Shown: piece by piece, positions 1 through 28,780 of the stretch
Layout: every line of letters begins with the position of its first letter
How positions within the stretch are numbered: the stretch's first letter is position 1
NCBI RefSeq assembly: GCF_022354825.1
Contig: NZ_CP031168.1
Coordinates: forward strand, 3,969,501-4,033,500
Direction of reading: 5' to 3'
DNA: 64,000 nt
From: Paenibacillus sp. H1-7
GTDB lineage: Bacteria > Bacillota > Bacilli > Paenibacillales > NBRC-103111
Notes under the pieces: generated by a model
What the model saw: the letters and a program-made list of their open reading frames with translations, nothing else
What the model was told of the DNA's origin: nothing
Databases searched by the model: none
Program-made: the position numbers and the translations under genes

Positions 1-40
1 CGGATGCACCTTACGGGTGTCCTAAAAGGGGAAATGGATT

Positions 41-21590: not shown

Positions 21591-21607
21591 TGTTATAAAA
21601 CATAACA
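21591..21607. promoter_or_regulatory. TnrA/GlnR-type nitrogen control box
   Basis: TGTTATAAAACATAACA fits the consensus TGTNA-N7-TNACA without mismatch. Its centre is about 50 nt before the expected transcription start, the position used when TnrA activates. It links the operon below to nitrogen limitation. Confidence 0.75.
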
Positions 21608-21613
21608 AATCAG

Positions 21614-21642
21614 TTGCATTTCAATGAAGTAGATGTTATATT
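21614..21642 (+). promoter_or_regulatory. Sigma-A promoter of the guanidine operon
   Basis: TTGCAT (21614-21619), 17-nt spacer, TATATT (21637-21642). It lies 7 nt downstream of the nitrogen box and directly upstream of the riboswitch. Confidence 0.65.
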
Positions 21643-21654
21643 AAGTGACATAAA

Positions 21655-21790
21655 TTGAATATTTAGTTTACTAGGGTTCCGCTGACAGTCATTCATGTCA
21701 GGTCTGGTCCGAGGGTAAACCGTTTCTTGAGAGTCTAACGTACAAGGATTCAAGGGGAGCGACACGGACGGCTAAAATCCTGGGAGATAT
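21655..21790 (+). promoter_or_regulatory. ykkC / guanidine-I riboswitch
   Basis: The conserved elements of the ykkC aptamer appear in order. They are CTAGGGTTCCG (21671-21681), GGTCTGGTCCGAG (21701-21713), ACGGacgGCTAAAATCC around 21764-21780, and TGGGAGATA (21781-21789). An intrinsic terminator overlaps its 3' end, so ligand binding should favour read-through. The downstream carboxylase, deiminase and allophanate hydrolase genes point to the guanidine-sensing subtype rather than the ppGpp or PRPP subtypes. Confidence 0.92.
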
Positions 21791-21826
21791 CATTCAGACG
21801 TAATGTCTGTTGGTATCTCCTTTTTA
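21783..21826 (+). terminator. Riboswitch-controlled terminator
   Basis: GGAGATATC pairs with GGTATCTCC (21812-21820). An inner helix pairs CAGAC with GTCTG, and TTTTTATTTT follows. The ascending arm reuses the last bases of the aptamer. Confidence 0.85.
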
Positions 21827-21891
21827 TTTTATCTTTTTTAAGCACTGTTAAGGATAACAGCCGCAAAACAACCATTGGGAGGGGTAAATCA

Positions 21892-22614
21892 ATGAATAGC
21901 TTATGGAGTATAACCATTCGTCCAGGCGGGAAATGGTCAGCCGTTGTAGGTCGCGGCAAGCTGGTTCGTTTCACCGCTTTGGAGAAGGGAGCGAACGTCT
22001 CGCTCGCCTTGTATAACGCTGACGACACGTCGGAACGGTACAATATGCCGGATACGTTGAAGGCGCAGCATACGGCCCATTTGACGAGAGGCAATGTGCT
22101 GATGAGCGATAACGGCCGTGTCCTGGCTAGTATCGTCGAGGATTCGCTAGGCTGGCACGATACGATAAGCGGCTACACGACGAGGCAGGTTACCGATGCC
22201 AAATACGGTGAGACGACATATCAGGAGCTTCGTAATGAGTGGCTTCGCAGCGGGCAAGAAAATTTTGCCGTGGAGTTATTCAGGAATGGAATGCGTATGC
22301 GCGACATGGTGCCTGTCGTCAATCTGTTCTCGAAGGTTTACTGCGATGAGCATGGAGATATGAGATTTGTAACTGACCATGCCGTCAAGGGATCGACGGT
22401 GACATTGCGCACCGAAATGGACACATTGATCCTTTTGTCCAATACTCCAAATCCGTTGGATCCAAGAACAGCCTACCCGTCCGTGCCTGTGCAAATTGAT
22501 ATTCGCTCGTCGGCACCTGTGGACGAATCGGACTTTTGCTTAAACTACCGCCCGGAGAACCGGCGTTGCTTTGAGAATACGTGGGAGTATTACACGCTGT
22601 ATCCGCGAAAGTAA
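21892..22614 (+). CDS. Urea-carboxylase-associated (DUF1989) protein, carboxyguanidine deiminase subunit
   Basis: 240-aa cytoplasmic protein of the DUF1989 / urea carboxylase-associated family. In guanidine-degrading bacteria two such proteins form the heteromeric carboxyguanidine deiminase (CgdAB), which removes ammonia from carboxyguanidine to give allophanate. Family features are the segment SDNGRVLASIVEDSLGWHD and the C-terminal LSNTPNPLDPRTAY. The ATG at 21892 follows TTGGGAGGGG. It is the first gene of the riboswitch-controlled operon; its sister lies 54 nt downstream. Which of the two is A or B I cannot tell. Confidence 0.87.
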   Translation: MNSLWSITIRPGGKWSAVVGRGKLVRFTALEKGANVSLALYNADDTSERYNMPDTLKAQHTAHLTRGNVLMSDNGRVLASIVEDSLGWHDTISGYTTRQVTDAKYGETTYQELRNEWLRSGQENFAVELFRNGMRMRDMVPVVNLFSKVYCDEHGDMRFVTDHAVKGSTVTLRTEMDTLILLSNTPNPLDPRTAYPSVPVQIDIRSSAPVDESDFCLNYRPENRRCFENTWEYYTLYPRK

Positions 22615-22668
22615 CTGACTCGGAAATCGAGACGAATCACAAACGAATATGGTTAAGGAGGAGCTGCA

Positions 22669-23319
22669 ATGGCTGTATTTAATCGAGTTGAAAGTCCCCG
22701 CAAGGCGGAGGAGGCCATCTATGATACAACGGTGCTGGCAGGAGACGGATGGACAAGGGAGCTGCTGCCGGGCCAAGTGCTGCGGATTGTCGATCTGGAA
22801 GGGAATCAGGCGGCGGATACGCTCTTTTACGATGCGGATCATCCGGAGGATCACTATAGCGCCGTATCGACCATCGCCGGTCAAGGCAACATTTATTTGA
22901 CGGCGGGGAGCGTGTTGCGCACGGAGTCGGGCAAAGAGCTTCTTACCATTGTGGCCGATACATGCGGGCGTCACGATACGCTCGGAGGCTCGTGCTCGGC
23001 TCAAAGCAATACGGTTCGCTATTCGCCCGACAAGCTGCATATGCACAATTGCCGGGATACGTTCATGCTGCAATTGTCCAAACGGGATGGAGCTTATTCG
23101 AAGCGAGACCTCGCACCGAATGTGAACTTTTTTATGAATGTACCGGTAACTCCGGAAGGCGGACTTGAATTTGCAGACGGTGTATCGTCCCCGGGTGCTT
23201 ATGTCGAGCTGAAATCGCTATGCCGGACACTGGTCCTTATCAGCAATTGCCCACAGCTAAACAACCCTTGCAACGCCTACAACCCGACGCCGATTCGGCT
23301 GTTGATTTGGGATCAATAA
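22669..23319 (+). CDS. Urea-carboxylase-associated (DUF1989) protein, second deiminase subunit
   Basis: 216-aa paralogue of the preceding protein and the probable second subunit of carboxyguanidine deiminase. It carries the strongly conserved family segments ADTCGRHDTLGGSCSAQSNT, PNVNFFMNVPV and SNCPQLNNPCNAYNPTP, rich in Cys and His that may bind metal. AAGGAGGAG lies just before the ATG. The next gene starts 26 nt downstream. Annotation pipelines usually call it urea carboxylase-associated protein. The riboswitch and operon content argue for a role in guanidine breakdown. Confidence 0.9.
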   Translation: MAVFNRVESPRKAEEAIYDTTVLAGDGWTRELLPGQVLRIVDLEGNQAADTLFYDADHPEDHYSAVSTIAGQGNIYLTAGSVLRTESGKELLTIVADTCGRHDTLGGSCSAQSNTVRYSPDKLHMHNCRDTFMLQLSKRDGAYSKRDLAPNVNFFMNVPVTPEGGLEFADGVSSPGAYVELKSLCRTLVLISNCPQLNNPCNAYNPTPIRLLIWDQ

Positions 23320-23345
23320 CAAGCGCCCCGAGAGGAGAGGTCATC

Positions 23346-26300
23346 ATGTTCAACAAAGTGCTCATTGCCAATAGAGGAGCGATAGCCGTTCGGGTCGAGC
23401 GGACGTTGCGTAAGCTTGGTATTGCCTCCGTGGCGGTATATACGCAAGCCGACCAAGACAGTCTTCATGTGGAATATGCGGATGAAGTGGTGCCGATCGG
23501 AGAAGGGCCGGTCAAGGAAAGCTATTTGAATGCAGAGCTTATACTTCAAAAGGCGATTGAAACAGGTGCGGAAGCGATTCATCCCGGCTATGGCTTCCTG
23601 AGCGAAAATGCCTCCTTTGCCCGCACATGCCGTGACAGGGGCATCGTATTCATCGGTCCGACTCCGGAGCAGATGGAGATGTTCGGGCTCAAGCATTCCG
23701 CGCGAGAAATAGCGGAGAAGGCCGGCGTTCCGATGCTGCCCGGAACCGCCCTTATAACCGAGCTGGATGAAGCGGTCAATGAAGCGGCGTCGATCGGGTA
23801 CCCGGTCATACTGAAAAGCACGGCCGGCGGGGGCGGCATCGGCATGCGCGTTTGCGCCGACGAACCGGCGCTGCGGGAGGCATTTGATTCGGTGCGCCGG
23901 CTGGCGGAGACCAATTTCAAAAACGGCGGCGTATTCCTGGAAAAATATATTGCAAGAGCCCGGCATGTCGAGGTGCAAATATTCGGCAACCGGTTCGGCG
24001 AGGTTGTCGCACTCGGTGAAAGGGATTGCTCGATACAGCGCCGCAATCAGAAGGTTATCGAAGAAACGCCGGCTCCGTTACTGCCTGAGCATGTTCGAGC
24101 GGAAATGCTCGATTCCGCCAAACGGTTGGCCGCCGAGGTCGGGTATCGCAGCGCCGGGACGGTAGAATATTTGTACGATCCGCAAACCTGCGAATTTTAC
24201 TTCCTGGAGGTGAATACAAGACTCCAGGTAGAGCATGGCGTAACGGAAGAAGTGCTGAAGGTGGATTTGGTGGAATGGATGATCCGGGAAGCAGCTGATA
24301 ATCTGCGCGATTTGGCGTCACTGGTTCGGCAGCCTCAGGGGCACAGCATTCAGGCCCGCATTTATGCGGAGGATTGCTTGCACAATTTCCGGCCGAGCGC
24401 CGGTCAGCTGGACCGCGCCGTATTTTGCGACGATGCCCGCAACGAGACGTGGGTACGCGACGGTCTAACGGTAACCTCGCTGTACGATCCTATGCTTGCC
24501 AAAATTATCGTACATGGCGCAAACCGCGCGGATGCAATCCGCAAGCTAGCTGCAGCGCTCGAGCAAACCCGTCTGTACGGCATCACGACCAACCTGCAAT
24601 ATTTGCAGGCGCTGCTTCAGGATAAGGATGTGCTCGATGGCAATGTGTATACGCAGCTGCTGAACGGCTTTGAACCGGCGGAGCATGCGCTGGAAGTCGT
24701 TGACGGAGGAGTTCAGTCGACGGTACAGGACTATCCCGGCAGGACGGGACACTGGGATGTCGGTGTGCCGCCGTGCGGACCGATGGACCCGCTGGCGTTC
24801 CGAATCGGCAATAAGCTGCTTGGCAATGACGACTCCGCTCCGGGGCTCGAGTTGACGCTTCGCGGAGGAGCTTACCGGTTCCGTCAGGAGACGTGGTTTT
24901 GTATTACTGGAGCAGACATGCAGGCGACGCTGGATGATGTGCCTGTATCGATGTACAAACCGGCCTTTGCCGGAAAAGGCCAGCAATTAAGCTTCGGCGA
25001 AGCCGAGGAGGGGATGCGCGCGTACTTGCTCGTTGCCGGCGGCTTTGATATGCCGCACATTCTCGGAAGCGCGTCGACGTTCACGCTCGGCGGCTTCGGC
25101 GGGCATGGCGGACGGGCGCTGCGCACCGGCGATGTTCTCGGTATTCGCAAGATGGCGGCCAAGAACCCGGTATACAGCGGGTTAACCGCAGCGGATCGGC
25201 CGGCCGTATCGAGGGAATGGACGATAGGCGTGATCCCGGGGCCGCATTGCACGGAGGAGTTTTTGCGGCCGGAATATTTGCGCCAGCTCACGGATACGAG
25301 CTGGGAAGTGCATTTTAACAGCTCCCGTACGGGAGTGCGCCTAATCGGTCCGGCGCCGCTGTGGACCAGAGAAGACGGTGGAGAAGCAGGGCTGCATCCG
25401 TCGAACATTCATGACAATGCCTACGCCATCGGTACGCTGGATTTGACGGGCGACATGCCGATCCTGTTAGGTCCGGACGGGCCGAGTCTCGGGGGCTTCG
25501 TATGCCCGGTAACTACAGCGACTGCCGAGCTGTGGAAGCTCGGTCAGCTGCATCCGGGCGACAAGGTGCGCTTTCAGCTTGTTACGCTGCAGGAAGCTGA
25601 AGCGATGCGGCATGTGCAGGAAGCATATTTAGCTGGCGTCGGGGAAGGGAAACGGACGGAGCTTCAACTATCGGCGCTGCCGAAACATGAGTTTGAATCT
25701 AACACGGAGCTAACACCGGATTATCCTTTGTTAGCTTATGAAGCGGAGCATCGCCGATTCCCGATCACCATTCGCTGCTCCGGAGACCAAAATCTGCTGG
25801 TTGAGTACGGCCGGTTGGAGCTGGATTTACTCCTGCGTTTCCAAGTACACGCCTTAATGGAAGCTATCCAAACCAAGAGCGACATACCGGTGCTTGATTT
25901 GACGCCGGGTATCCGTTCGTTGCAAATTCATATCGATCCGCTGCAAATGACGGTAACCGAAGCTTGCCGCAAAGTGCTGGAGATCGATAGGCAGCTGCCG
26001 CCGTTGGAATCGATTCGGGTCCCATCGCGAATAGTCCGACTGCCGCTATCCTGGGACGATCCCGCTACACAGCTCGCGATTCAACGCTATCAGCAGACAG
26101 TCCGGCCTGACGCGCCTTGGTGCCCGAGCAATCTCGAATTCATCCACCGGATCAACGGGCTCGACAGTATCGATGACGTGCAATCCATTGTATTCGATGC
26201 AAGCTATCTCGTCCTTGGCTTAGGCGATGTGTACTTGGGCGCGCCGGTAGCCACGCCGATTGATCCGCGTCACCGGCTCGTAACGACCAAATACAATCCG

Positions 26301-26993
26301 GCTCGTACATGGACGCCGGAAAATGCAGTCGGTATCGGCGGAGCCTACATGTGCGTATATGGAATGGAAGGTCCCGGCGGCTATCAATTCGTCGGACGAA
26401 CGATCCAAATGTGGAATCGGCTTCGCTCCACCGAGAGCTTCCAGCCGGGCAAGCCTTGGCTGTTGAGATTTTTTGACCAGATCCAGTTTTATCCGGTAGG
26501 AGCCGATGAGCTTCTTAAGCTGCGTGAAGATTTCTTGCGCGGAAGGTACGAGGCGGACATTACGGAAACGACGTTCGATCTCGGAGAATATTTGCAATTC
26601 CTCGAATCCATCAAGGAAAGTGCGGATCGATTCCGCGAGCAGCAGCAGCGTTCGTTCCAGGCGGAGCGGGAGAGCTGGAAGGCTCTCGGCTTGGCGGAAT
26701 ATGTATCGGAACAGGATCATGACAAGGCTGCAGAGGAAGAGGAACTCCCGGAAGGTGCGGTAGCAGTCCGCTGCACCATGCCGGGAAGCGTATGGAAGGT
26801 TCTCGTCACACCGGGGCAGCTGGTCAAGAAGGGGGAGACGGTCATTATCGAGGAAAGCATGAAGATGGAGTTCCCGCAGTTCGCTCCGTGCGACGGATAT
26901 GTTCAGTCGGTCTTCGTCCAACCTGGCGACGAGGTTCATGCAGGTCAATTACTAGCCGGAATTGCGCTGGAGAAAGAGGTGTTGAGCAAATGA
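23346..26993 (+). CDS. Biotin-dependent guanidine (urea-type) carboxylase
   Basis: Multidomain cytoplasmic carboxylase, 1215 aa, using ATP, bicarbonate and biotin to carboxylate guanidine (or urea). The biotin carboxylase domain spans about 1-450, with the ATP-grasp loop STAGGGGIGMR, FLEVNTRLQVEHG and the RDCSIQRRNQK segment. The KipA/KipI-like carboxyltransferase halves span about 470-1110 (GGVQSTVQDYPGRTGHWDVG). The biotinyl domain is C-terminal, with the lysine K1173 in ESMKME. The ATG at 23346 follows GAGGAGAGG. The stop overlaps the allophanate hydrolase start by 4 nt. Sequence alone does not separate guanidine from urea carboxylase; the riboswitch and DUF1989 genes favour guanidine. Confidence 0.93.
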   Translation: MFNKVLIANRGAIAVRVERTLRKLGIASVAVYTQADQDSLHVEYADEVVPIGEGPVKESYLNAELILQKAIETGAEAIHPGYGFLSENASFARTCRDRGIVFIGPTPEQMEMFGLKHSAREIAEKAGVPMLPGTALITELDEAVNEAASIGYPVILKSTAGGGGIGMRVCADEPALREAFDSVRRLAETNFKNGGVFLEKYIARARHVEVQIFGNRFGEVVALGERDCSIQRRNQKVIEETPAPLLPEHVRAEMLDSAKRLAAEVGYRSAGTVEYLYDPQTCEFYFLEVNTRLQVEHGVTEEVLKVDLVEWMIREAADNLRDLASLVRQPQGHSIQARIYAEDCLHNFRPSAGQLDRAVFCDDARNETWVRDGLTVTSLYDPMLAKIIVHGANRADAIRKLAAALEQTRLYGITTNLQYLQALLQDKDVLDGNVYTQLLNGFEPAEHALEVVDGGVQSTVQDYPGRTGHWDVGVPPCGPMDPLAFRIGNKLLGNDDSAPGLELTLRGGAYRFRQETWFCITGADMQATLDDVPVSMYKPAFAGKGQQLSFGEAEEGMRAYLLVAGGFDMPHILGSASTFTLGGFGGHGGRALRTGDVLGIRKMAAKNPVYSGLTAADRPAVSREWTIGVIPGPHCTEEFLRPEYLRQLTDTSWEVHFNSSRTGVRLIGPAPLWTREDGGEAGLHPSNIHDNAYAIGTLDLTGDMPILLGPDGPSLGGFVCPVTTATAELWKLGQLHPGDKVRFQLVTLQEAEAMRHVQEAYLAGVGEGKRTELQLSALPKHEFESNTELTPDYPLLAYEAEHRRFPITIRCSGDQNLLVEYGRLELDLLLRFQVHALMEAIQTKSDIPVLDLTPGIRSLQIHIDPLQMTVTEACRKVLEIDRQLPPLESIRVPSRIVRLPLSWDDPATQLAIQRYQQTVRPDAPWCPSNLEFIHRINGLDSIDDVQSIVFDASYLVLGLGDVYLGAPVATPIDPRHRLVTTKYNPARTWTPENAVGIGGAYMCVYGMEGPGGYQFVGRTIQMWNRLRSTESFQPGKPWLLRFFDQIQFYPVGADELLKLREDFLRGRYEADITETTFDLGEYLQFLESIKESADRFREQQQRSFQAERESWKALGLAEYVSEQDHDKAAEEEELPEGAVAVRCTMPGSVWKVLVTPGQLVKKGETVIIEESMKMEFPQFAPCDGYVQSVFVQPGDEVHAGQLLAGIALEKEVLSK

Positions 26994-28780
26994 AGACGAA
27001 AGATGCGCCGGGCGCCTTGTCCATAGGCCGACTTAGAGAGCAGTATTTGAATGGCGAGACGACACCCGAAGCCGTCATTTCCGACATTATTCAGCGTGCA
27101 AATGAAGATGTGGAGATGAACCTGTGGATTACGCCTCCTACTATGGAGTGGATTCGGCCCTATCTGGACCAGCTGAATGCTATGGATCGGACCAAAGCGC
27201 CATTGTGGGGAATCCCTTTTGCAATCAAGGACAACATTGATCTGGCTGGATTGCCTACAACCGCAGGATGCCCTGATTATTCCTTTATCCCGGAGGAGCA
27301 TGCAGCGGTAGTCGCACGGCTGATCGAAGCCGGAGCGATCCCCGTCGGCAAAACGAATCTGGACCAGTTCGCCACGGGCCTTGTAGGCACAAGAAGCCCC
27401 TATGGGGAGACGCACAACGCGCTGCGCCCCGAGCTTATTAGCGGCGGTTCCAGCTCCGGCTCAGCTGTCGCTGTCGCTCGCGGCCATGCCGCCTTCGCGC
27501 TTGGTACCGATACTGCCGGCTCCGGCCGGGTGCCGGCGGCGCTGAACCGGCTCGTCGGATATAAGCCGAGTCTTGGAGCTTGGCCGACGAAAGGTGTCGT
27601 TCCGGCTTGCGCAAGTCTCGATTGCGTGACGGTTTTCGCCCGCAACCTTGAAGATGCACTGGTCGTAGACAGCGTTGCCAGAGGGTTGGAGGCTTCCGAT
27701 CCGTGGTCGAGAATGGTTGCTGGACCTGCTGTGAAGCTTCCTGGCAAAATCATATTGCCGAAACATGCATTGACGTTCTTCGGTCCCTTTGCCGACGAGT
27801 ACCGGCATGCCTGGAATGCTTCTGTTGCGCAGTGGGAATCTCTAGGTATTCCGATCGAATATGCTGAGATTGAATTGTTCTCCAAGGCGGCGGCCATCTT
27901 GTATGAAGGACCTTGGGTTGCGGAGCGTTGGGCGGCACTAGGCGGCTTCCTAGATGCTCACCCCGGCGCAGCGAACCAGGTAACGGAGCTTGTGCTGCGT
28001 TCCGCCACATCGGCGGAATATGACGCGACGGCGGTCTTTCAAGCGATGCACGACCTTCAAGTGTATAAGCTGGAAGCCCGTAAGCTGCTTCAGGATGCTG
28101 TTCTCGTCCTGCCGACCTCCGGCGGAACATGGTCCCGAGAGCAAGTAGAGCAGGATCCGGTCGCAACGAATCGGGACATGGGACGATATACGAATCATTG
28201 CAATTTGCTTGATTTGTGTGCAGCTGCCGTACCGGGTGAAGATGCAGGGGAGCAGTTGCCGTTCGGCATTACCCTTTTCGCGTTAGCGGAGAATGAAGGG
28301 CTTGTTTGCGGAGCTGCTGAGCGTTTTATGAACAGGGGGACGCCTATCGGACATGCTGAACCGAATGGACTGAACCAGGTGAGTGCGGCGCCGGACCGCG
28401 AACCGACGACTCTCGTAGCCGTATGCGGCTTGCATATGCGCGGGTTTCCGCTGGAGAAGCAGATGGTTGAATGCCGCGCGGCCTTTATTCGCGAGGAGTC
28501 GACGGCTCCACGGTATCAGTTCGTCAAGCTGCCAACGGTACCGGCCAAGCCAGGGCTAATCAAGCTGCCTGAGGGAGGCTCTTCGATCCGCTTGGAGGTA
28601 TGGGAAATGCCGCTTGCTTCCTTCGGCCGTTTTGCCGCGTCTATCCCGGCCCCGCTTGGTATTGGTAAAGTCGAGCTTGCCGACGGCTCGGAGGTGCCTG
28701 GTTTTGTATGCGAGGCTTATGCAGCGGAAGGGGCGGAGGATATTACGGCTTCCGGAGGTTGGCGGCAGGCGGAAGCCTGA
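26990..28780 (+). CDS. atzF: Allophanate hydrolase
   Basis: Amidase-signature enzyme, 596 aa, that hydrolyses allophanate to ammonia and CO2, the last step of guanidine or urea-carboxylase degradation. K80 (FAIKDN), the SGGSSSG loop at 151-157 and S178 in GTDTAGS form the Ser-cisSer-Lys centre. A C-terminal domain (about 450-596) with VCGLHMRGFPLEKQM is typical of full-length AtzF. The ATG at 26990 overlaps the carboxylase stop and is preceded by AAAGAGGTG, so translation is coupled. No guanidine transporter gene follows in the operon. Confidence 0.93.
   Translation: MKTKDAPGALSIGRLREQYLNGETTPEAVISDIIQRANEDVEMNLWITPPTMEWIRPYLDQLNAMDRTKAPLWGIPFAIKDNIDLAGLPTTAGCPDYSFIPEEHAAVVARLIEAGAIPVGKTNLDQFATGLVGTRSPYGETHNALRPELISGGSSSGSAVAVARGHAAFALGTDTAGSGRVPAALNRLVGYKPSLGAWPTKGVVPACASLDCVTVFARNLEDALVVDSVARGLEASDPWSRMVAGPAVKLPGKIILPKHALTFFGPFADEYRHAWNASVAQWESLGIPIEYAEIELFSKAAAILYEGPWVAERWAALGGFLDAHPGAANQVTELVLRSATSAEYDATAVFQAMHDLQVYKLEARKLLQDAVLVLPTSGGTWSREQVEQDPVATNRDMGRYTNHCNLLDLCAAAVPGEDAGEQLPFGITLFALAENEGLVCGAAERFMNRGTPIGHAEPNGLNQVSAAPDREPTTLVAVCGLHMRGFPLEKQMVECRAAFIREESTAPRYQFVKLPTVPAKPGLIKLPEGGSSIRLEVWEMPLASFGRFAASIPAPLGIGKVELADGSEVPGFVCEAYAAEGAEDITASGGWRQAEA

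Follow-up and report, generated by a model that had tools for sequence, protein, structure and literature searches.

The guanidine operon and its leader

The window, a stretch of 64,000 nucleotides of the soil bacterium Paenibacillus sp. H1-7, contains an operon of four closely spaced forward-strand genes that is present in only 3 of 13 genomes of the genus. As the original prediction had it, these genes encode two DUF1989 proteins, a urea-type carboxylase and an allophanate hydrolase. The two DUF1989 proteins are the subunits of a carboxyguanidine deiminase, CgdA (21892-22614; UAAP1, 303 bits against a cut-off of 206) and CgdB (22669-23319; UAAP2, 298 bits against a cut-off of 285, with 3oru as a PDB relative), and this UAAP1 and UAAP2 pair adjoins the carboxylase gene (23346-26993), whose product belongs to the urea-carboxylase family and carries biotin carboxylase, CT and biotin domains. 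The allophanate hydrolase gene (26990-28780) overlaps the carboxylase gene in an ATGA. Guanidine carboxylases are called by aspartates at the positions equivalent to residues 1330 and 1584 of the Kluyveromyces lactis enzyme KlUC (PMC11410670), and the corresponding Asp/Asn rule for telling guanidine from urea carboxylases is also stated in PMC12186494. In an alignment with the urea amidolyase of K. lactis (5i8i), the carboxylase of the window has Asp at the position of Asn1330 and retains Asp1584 (codons 25440-25442 and 26226-26228, respectively). The residue at the 1330 position speaks against a urea carboxylase, and the two diagnostic residues support a guanidine carboxylase, as well as the earlier assignment of the gene set to guanidine degradation. 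Because these residues mark a guanidine carboxylase, the operon should convert guanidine via carboxyguanidine to allophanate, and then to ammonia and CO2.

The leader of this operon reads, from 5' to 3', box 1, 6 nt, TTGCAT, 17 nt, TATATT, aptamer, terminator and cgdA. Box 1, TGTTATAAAACATAACA (21591-21607, no strand assigned), is a perfect match to the TGTNA-N7-TNACA operator of the GlnR/TnrA regulon; it is centred at about -50 and is recognised by its sequence, by its recurrence at -50/-51 in other leaders and by a geometry that is rare in the genome. Exactly 6 nt 3' of it lies the -35 element TTGCAT (21614-21619, forward strand), which is weak, matching TTGACA at 3/6 positions, and at which a generic promoter scan makes no call. 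The -10 element TATATT (21637-21642, forward strand), assigned from its sequence, follows after a 17-nt spacer, and transcription would start at about 21649. A second perfect box, TGTTATATTAAGTGACA (21634-21650, no strand assigned), encloses the -10 element, with its centre at about -7, 43 bp from that of box 1; most relatives share this position. Dinucleotide shuffles of the 220 nt 5' of the aptamer contain one or more perfect boxes in 0.4% of cases and two or more in 0.005%. Single boxes are not rare in the genome, since 104 perfect boxes were counted over its 8.4 Mb, versus 58 for the reversed pattern. The arrangement box-6-TTGNNN-15..18-TANNNT occurs twice in the 8.4-Mb genome, one occurrence being the leader described here, and its reversed-pattern control is found nowhere in the whole 8.4 Mb.

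The riboswitch aptamer (21660-21788, forward strand) matches the guanidine-I family RF00442 of Rfam with 74.7 bits, above the gathering score of 63. This covariance score rules out the PRPP and ppGpp subtypes, and settles in favour of guanidine the subtype of the ykkC element that had been proposed. An intrinsic terminator hairpin followed by a U run (21782-21821, forward strand; -22.1 kcal/mol, z -6.7) overlaps the 3' end of the aptamer with its 5' arm, so that the aptamer 3' strand is common to both structures; ON switches are usually laid out with a terminator that starts inside this strand. The pocket strands ACACGGA and GGGAGAU are retained, but the P3 loop positions are unlike those of the other extracted aptamers: P3 (21766-21788) reads GGCTAAAATCC where the others show GGA/GGG..AAAA(G/A)CC, and the outer pair of P3 is mismatched (C/U). 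Judged from the sequence, this odd P3 may reduce the affinity for guanidine; it leaves the comparative result below unaffected, and counts for experiments on this particular leader.

Boxes on guanidine-I leaders of the Bacilli

For the comparison, leaders from the family and from the class Bacilli were picked by covariance-model match before any inspection for boxes, the first gene behind each was named by tblastn, and perfect boxes were sought in the 220 nt upstream. The sample was picked by hand and balanced, from among the better-scoring matches, so that weak aptamers are under-represented. Among its 131 riboswitches, a perfect box precedes 44 of the 46 guanidine-I leaders of degradation or import genes, compared with none of the 85 leaders of SMR/Gdx exporters (Fisher p about 7e-33, with the reservation that related genomes are not independent). 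In the family sample all 36 assimilation leaders have the box (cgdA, 12/12; APC, 12/12; NMT1-type ABC importer, 11/11; isochorismatase-like hydrolase, 1/1) versus 0/25 of the SMR exporters (Fisher p 1e-17), and 71 boxes were observed against 0.64 in composition-preserving shuffles. The class sample gave 8/10 and 0/60, respectively, the two assimilation leaders without a perfect box preceding ABC importers. By genus labels, the box-bearing assimilation leaders span about 11 genera in several families, and the exporters many more. Four further cgdA leaders, located by way of the protein or the operon and not of the box, each combine an aptamer with a perfect box 6 nt upstream of the -35 element. 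A GTDB scan for aptamer plus box returned 56 cgdA, 28 ABC importer, 21 APC and 2 exporter leaders, counts without a denominator, as the scan selects on the box. Its matches are mostly Paenibacillaceae, together with Heyndrickxia, Sporolactobacillus and Alicyclobacillus; those from outside the Bacilli (Opitutales L101, Pricia L133, Leptolyngbyaceae L144) were set aside, their aptamers not being recognised as guanidine-I by the motif. In Paenibacillaceae and some other Bacilli, this candidate operator goes with the import and breakdown genes of the guanidine regulon and not with the exporters.

The box centres cluster at four positions relative to promoters, namely -50/-51, -38/-39 (over the -35), -7 (over the -10) and +9 to +11, with an additional centre at about -101 in divergent APC/cgdA pairs that have their boxes in common. 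Promoters were scored by a simple matrix that favours hexamers inside boxes; at -7 and -38 the box supplies the hexamer, which makes these two peaks partly circular, whereas the -50 and +10 peaks are free of this circularity. The pairing of -50 with -7 is also seen in P. soyae and P. arenilitoris (L119, L161), the -50/-51 box recurs without a -7 box at a constant 6-nt spacing to the -35, and most relatives have the -7 box alone, many of them with a consensus TTGACA -35. Given this clustering across leaders, the putative activation position of box 1 belongs to a small group of standard positions. A weak -35 is not a regular partner of the -50 box, as many -50 promoters carry TTGACA. Helical phasing, as looping would require, was also rejected: centre spacings such as 43, 47, 51, 62, 74, 86 and 94 fit, by inspection, no single 10.5-bp ladder, and their quantisation tracks the promoter positions.

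Two other RF00442 matches were found in the genome of the window. One of them (L001), a guanidine-I switch, has perfect boxes at both -96 and -22 relative to the aptamer core and precedes an APC-type permease that is probably a guanidine importer. The other (L003) scores below the cut-off and is a PRPP-type ykkC element beside a purine aptamer before xpt (L003:1501-1694, reverse strand), which corresponds to the tandem guanine/PRPP arrangement described previously; no perfect box was found before it. The same genome encodes GlnR (L004), with glnA directly downstream and a C-terminal end, GELSRFFKK, that resembles the tail of Bacillus subtilis GlnR. It also encodes two TnrA-like proteins of 85 and 78 amino acids (L005:1480-1737 and L006:1486-1722), which have the same recognition helix and are shorter than B. 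subtilis TnrA. Perfect boxes lie upstream of both tnrA-like genes (L005:1396-1412 and L006:1335-1351) and of 2/3 amtB loci, and serve as internal positive controls since such genes are classical targets. The protein that reads the boxes would be a member of the GlnR/TnrA family, most likely GlnR or else a short TnrA-like paralogue.

Several leaders precede genes of other kinds. Guanidine-I aptamers with GlnR-type boxes stand before methyl-accepting chemotaxis proteins with 4HB or dCache sensor domains (L158:4184-5869, reverse strand; L102 from about 7491; L169:1186-3189) in P. qinlingensis, Paenibacillus sp. Soil750 and P. psychroresistens; these proteins are possible guanidine chemoreceptors. 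Arginase-family, guanidinase-like enzymes follow guanidine-I switches in Alicyclobacillus cellulosilyticus (L164:4-441, reverse strand), where a perfect box lies at -82, and in a second genome of the Bacilli (L297:1299-2441, reverse strand), where the boxes are near-perfect. At L064:10160-10961 and downstream, a guanidine-I aptamer with two perfect boxes precedes an isochorismatase-family hydrolase and an NCS1-like permease. Biuret hydrolase and N-carbamoylsarcosine amidase are among the closest PDB relatives of this hydrolase, and the locus may serve a guanylurea or related pathway. A guanidine-I-like leader below the Rfam cut-off, with a box, precedes a CbiM-type nickel/cobalt transporter component in P. 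xylaniclasticus (L108:1962-2621, reverse strand). Another guanidine-I-like leader (L288:474-926), which has no box, stands before the gene of a P-II protein, behind which lies a probable ammonium transporter gene. At L044:2011 an aptamer with two one-mismatch boxes has no recognisable same-strand target gene downstream, this leader being apparently orphaned.

A proposed two-input control

The operon is probably under two-input control, in which nitrogen status and guanidine act together as an AND gate. Initiation at TTGCAT-17-TATATT would be set by nitrogen status through a dimer of the GlnR/TnrA family, most likely GlnR. When nitrogen is short, a dimer bound to box 1 at -50 would assist RNA polymerase; when nitrogen is plentiful, a dimer bound to box 2 over the -10, together with feedback-inhibited glutamine synthetase, would shut the promoter. 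We model this proposed division of activation and repression on the nif promoter of P. polymyxa, which has two sites. Elongation would in turn be set by guanidine, the ligand stabilising the aptamer and preventing the overlapping terminator from forming. Only when both signals are present would CgdAB, guanidine carboxylase and allophanate hydrolase be made, releasing three ammonia per guanidine at the expense of ATP. The same design appears to be repeated before the APC-type permease of this genome, and the box-free exporters would leave detoxification governed by guanidine alone.

Dual control by nitrogen and guanidine had been part of the original prediction, and this interpretation largely holds, being supported by the sequence elements and the comparative pattern. 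The predicted order of box, promoter, aptamer and terminator was borne out as well; the nitrogen box gains weight from its recurrence at -50 and from the split between leader classes, although the second perfect box had been missed. With two boxes in the promoter, repression at -10 is just as likely as activation from -50, and the presence of a GlnR with a GlnR-like tail beside two shortened TnrA-like proteins means that activation, then ascribed to TnrA, should be ascribed to a GlnR/TnrA-family protein, most likely GlnR.

Three other readings have to be weighed against the AND gate. GlnR might only repress, shutting the promoter from the -10 in nitrogen excess while the -50 site serves as an auxiliary operator and nothing is activated. 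The many relatives with a -7 box alone and a TTGACA -35 speak for this, as does the description of B. subtilis GlnR as a classical repressor in the introduction of PMC6191146; yet the -50/-51 box, the working position of TnrA-type activators, recurs without a -7 box at its constant distance from the -35, and the -35 in the window is weak, so that we regard pure repression as possible but rather unlikely. The boxes might instead reflect chance or promoter composition, the operon responding to guanidine alone: AT-rich leaders do yield more boxes, TTGACA is itself half a box, and the box-selected exporter or variant-switch leaders L168, L182, L192 and L199 are of that kind. This is very improbable in view of the excess over shuffles and the split between leader classes already given. 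Equally remote is an operon that breaks down not guanidine but urea, to which the NCBIfam family names still refer; against it stand the Asp at the 1330 position, the CgdAB partners and the guanidine-I leader.

Beyond this operon, the AND gate is likely to belong to a clade-wide nitrogen-guanidine regulon of Paenibacillaceae and relatives, in which GlnR-type boxes were added, at four alternative promoter positions, to the guanidine-I leaders of genes for degradation and import and, in a few species, of genes for a chemoreceptor, a guanidinase or an isochorismatase-family hydrolase, with the exporters kept box-free; guanidine would then be food only when nitrogen is needed, and poison always. 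The field has yet to settle whether bacteria meet guanidine chiefly as a poison or as a nutrient, and a box that labels the nutrient branch but is missing from the export branch would offer a genomic way to tell them apart. It also predicts new guanidine genes, such as those for the APC permease, the NMT1-type ABC importer and the chemoreceptors. The promoters would form a set in which one operator function was retained while its position shifted among -50, -38, -7 and +10, and the leader in the window, where a DNA-binding protein and a riboswitch would act together, offers a direct test of the AND gate.

Relation to known systems

No guanidine gene or guanidine riboswitch is listed in the searched parts of the accounts of the TnrA/GlnR regulons of Bacilli (PMC3412718, PMC9948412), which have in common with the present case the 17-bp box and nitrogen-scavenging genes as targets, and the term guanidine is absent from the P. 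polymyxa GlnR mapping paper. In the open literature no paper was found that joins guanidine with GlnR, TnrA, NtcA or nitrogen limitation.

In P. polymyxa WLY78, a single GlnR activates nif from an upstream site and represses it from a downstream site with feedback-inhibited glutamine synthetase, and looping has been argued against (PMC6191146). Both promoters have a GlnR-type site upstream of the -35 and another that lies at the core promoter or beyond it, and activation and repression by one regulator, as in nif, is what we propose for the window. However, nif is without a riboswitch and its sites are 118 bp apart, the second lying downstream of the start, whereas in the window 43 bp separate the two centres, one of which lies over the -10.

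Guanidine carboxylase operons controlled by guanidine-I riboswitches have been described in Pseudomonas syringae, Raoultella and Klebsiella (PMC12186494), and resemble the present operon in aptamer class, CgdAB, guanidine carboxylase and allophanate hydrolase. They differ in that the reviewed descriptions consulted here name the riboswitch only, whereas in the window a GlnR/TnrA-type two-box promoter precedes the aptamer. The individual parts were already known; what is new is the division of the guanidine regulon by a putative nitrogen control.
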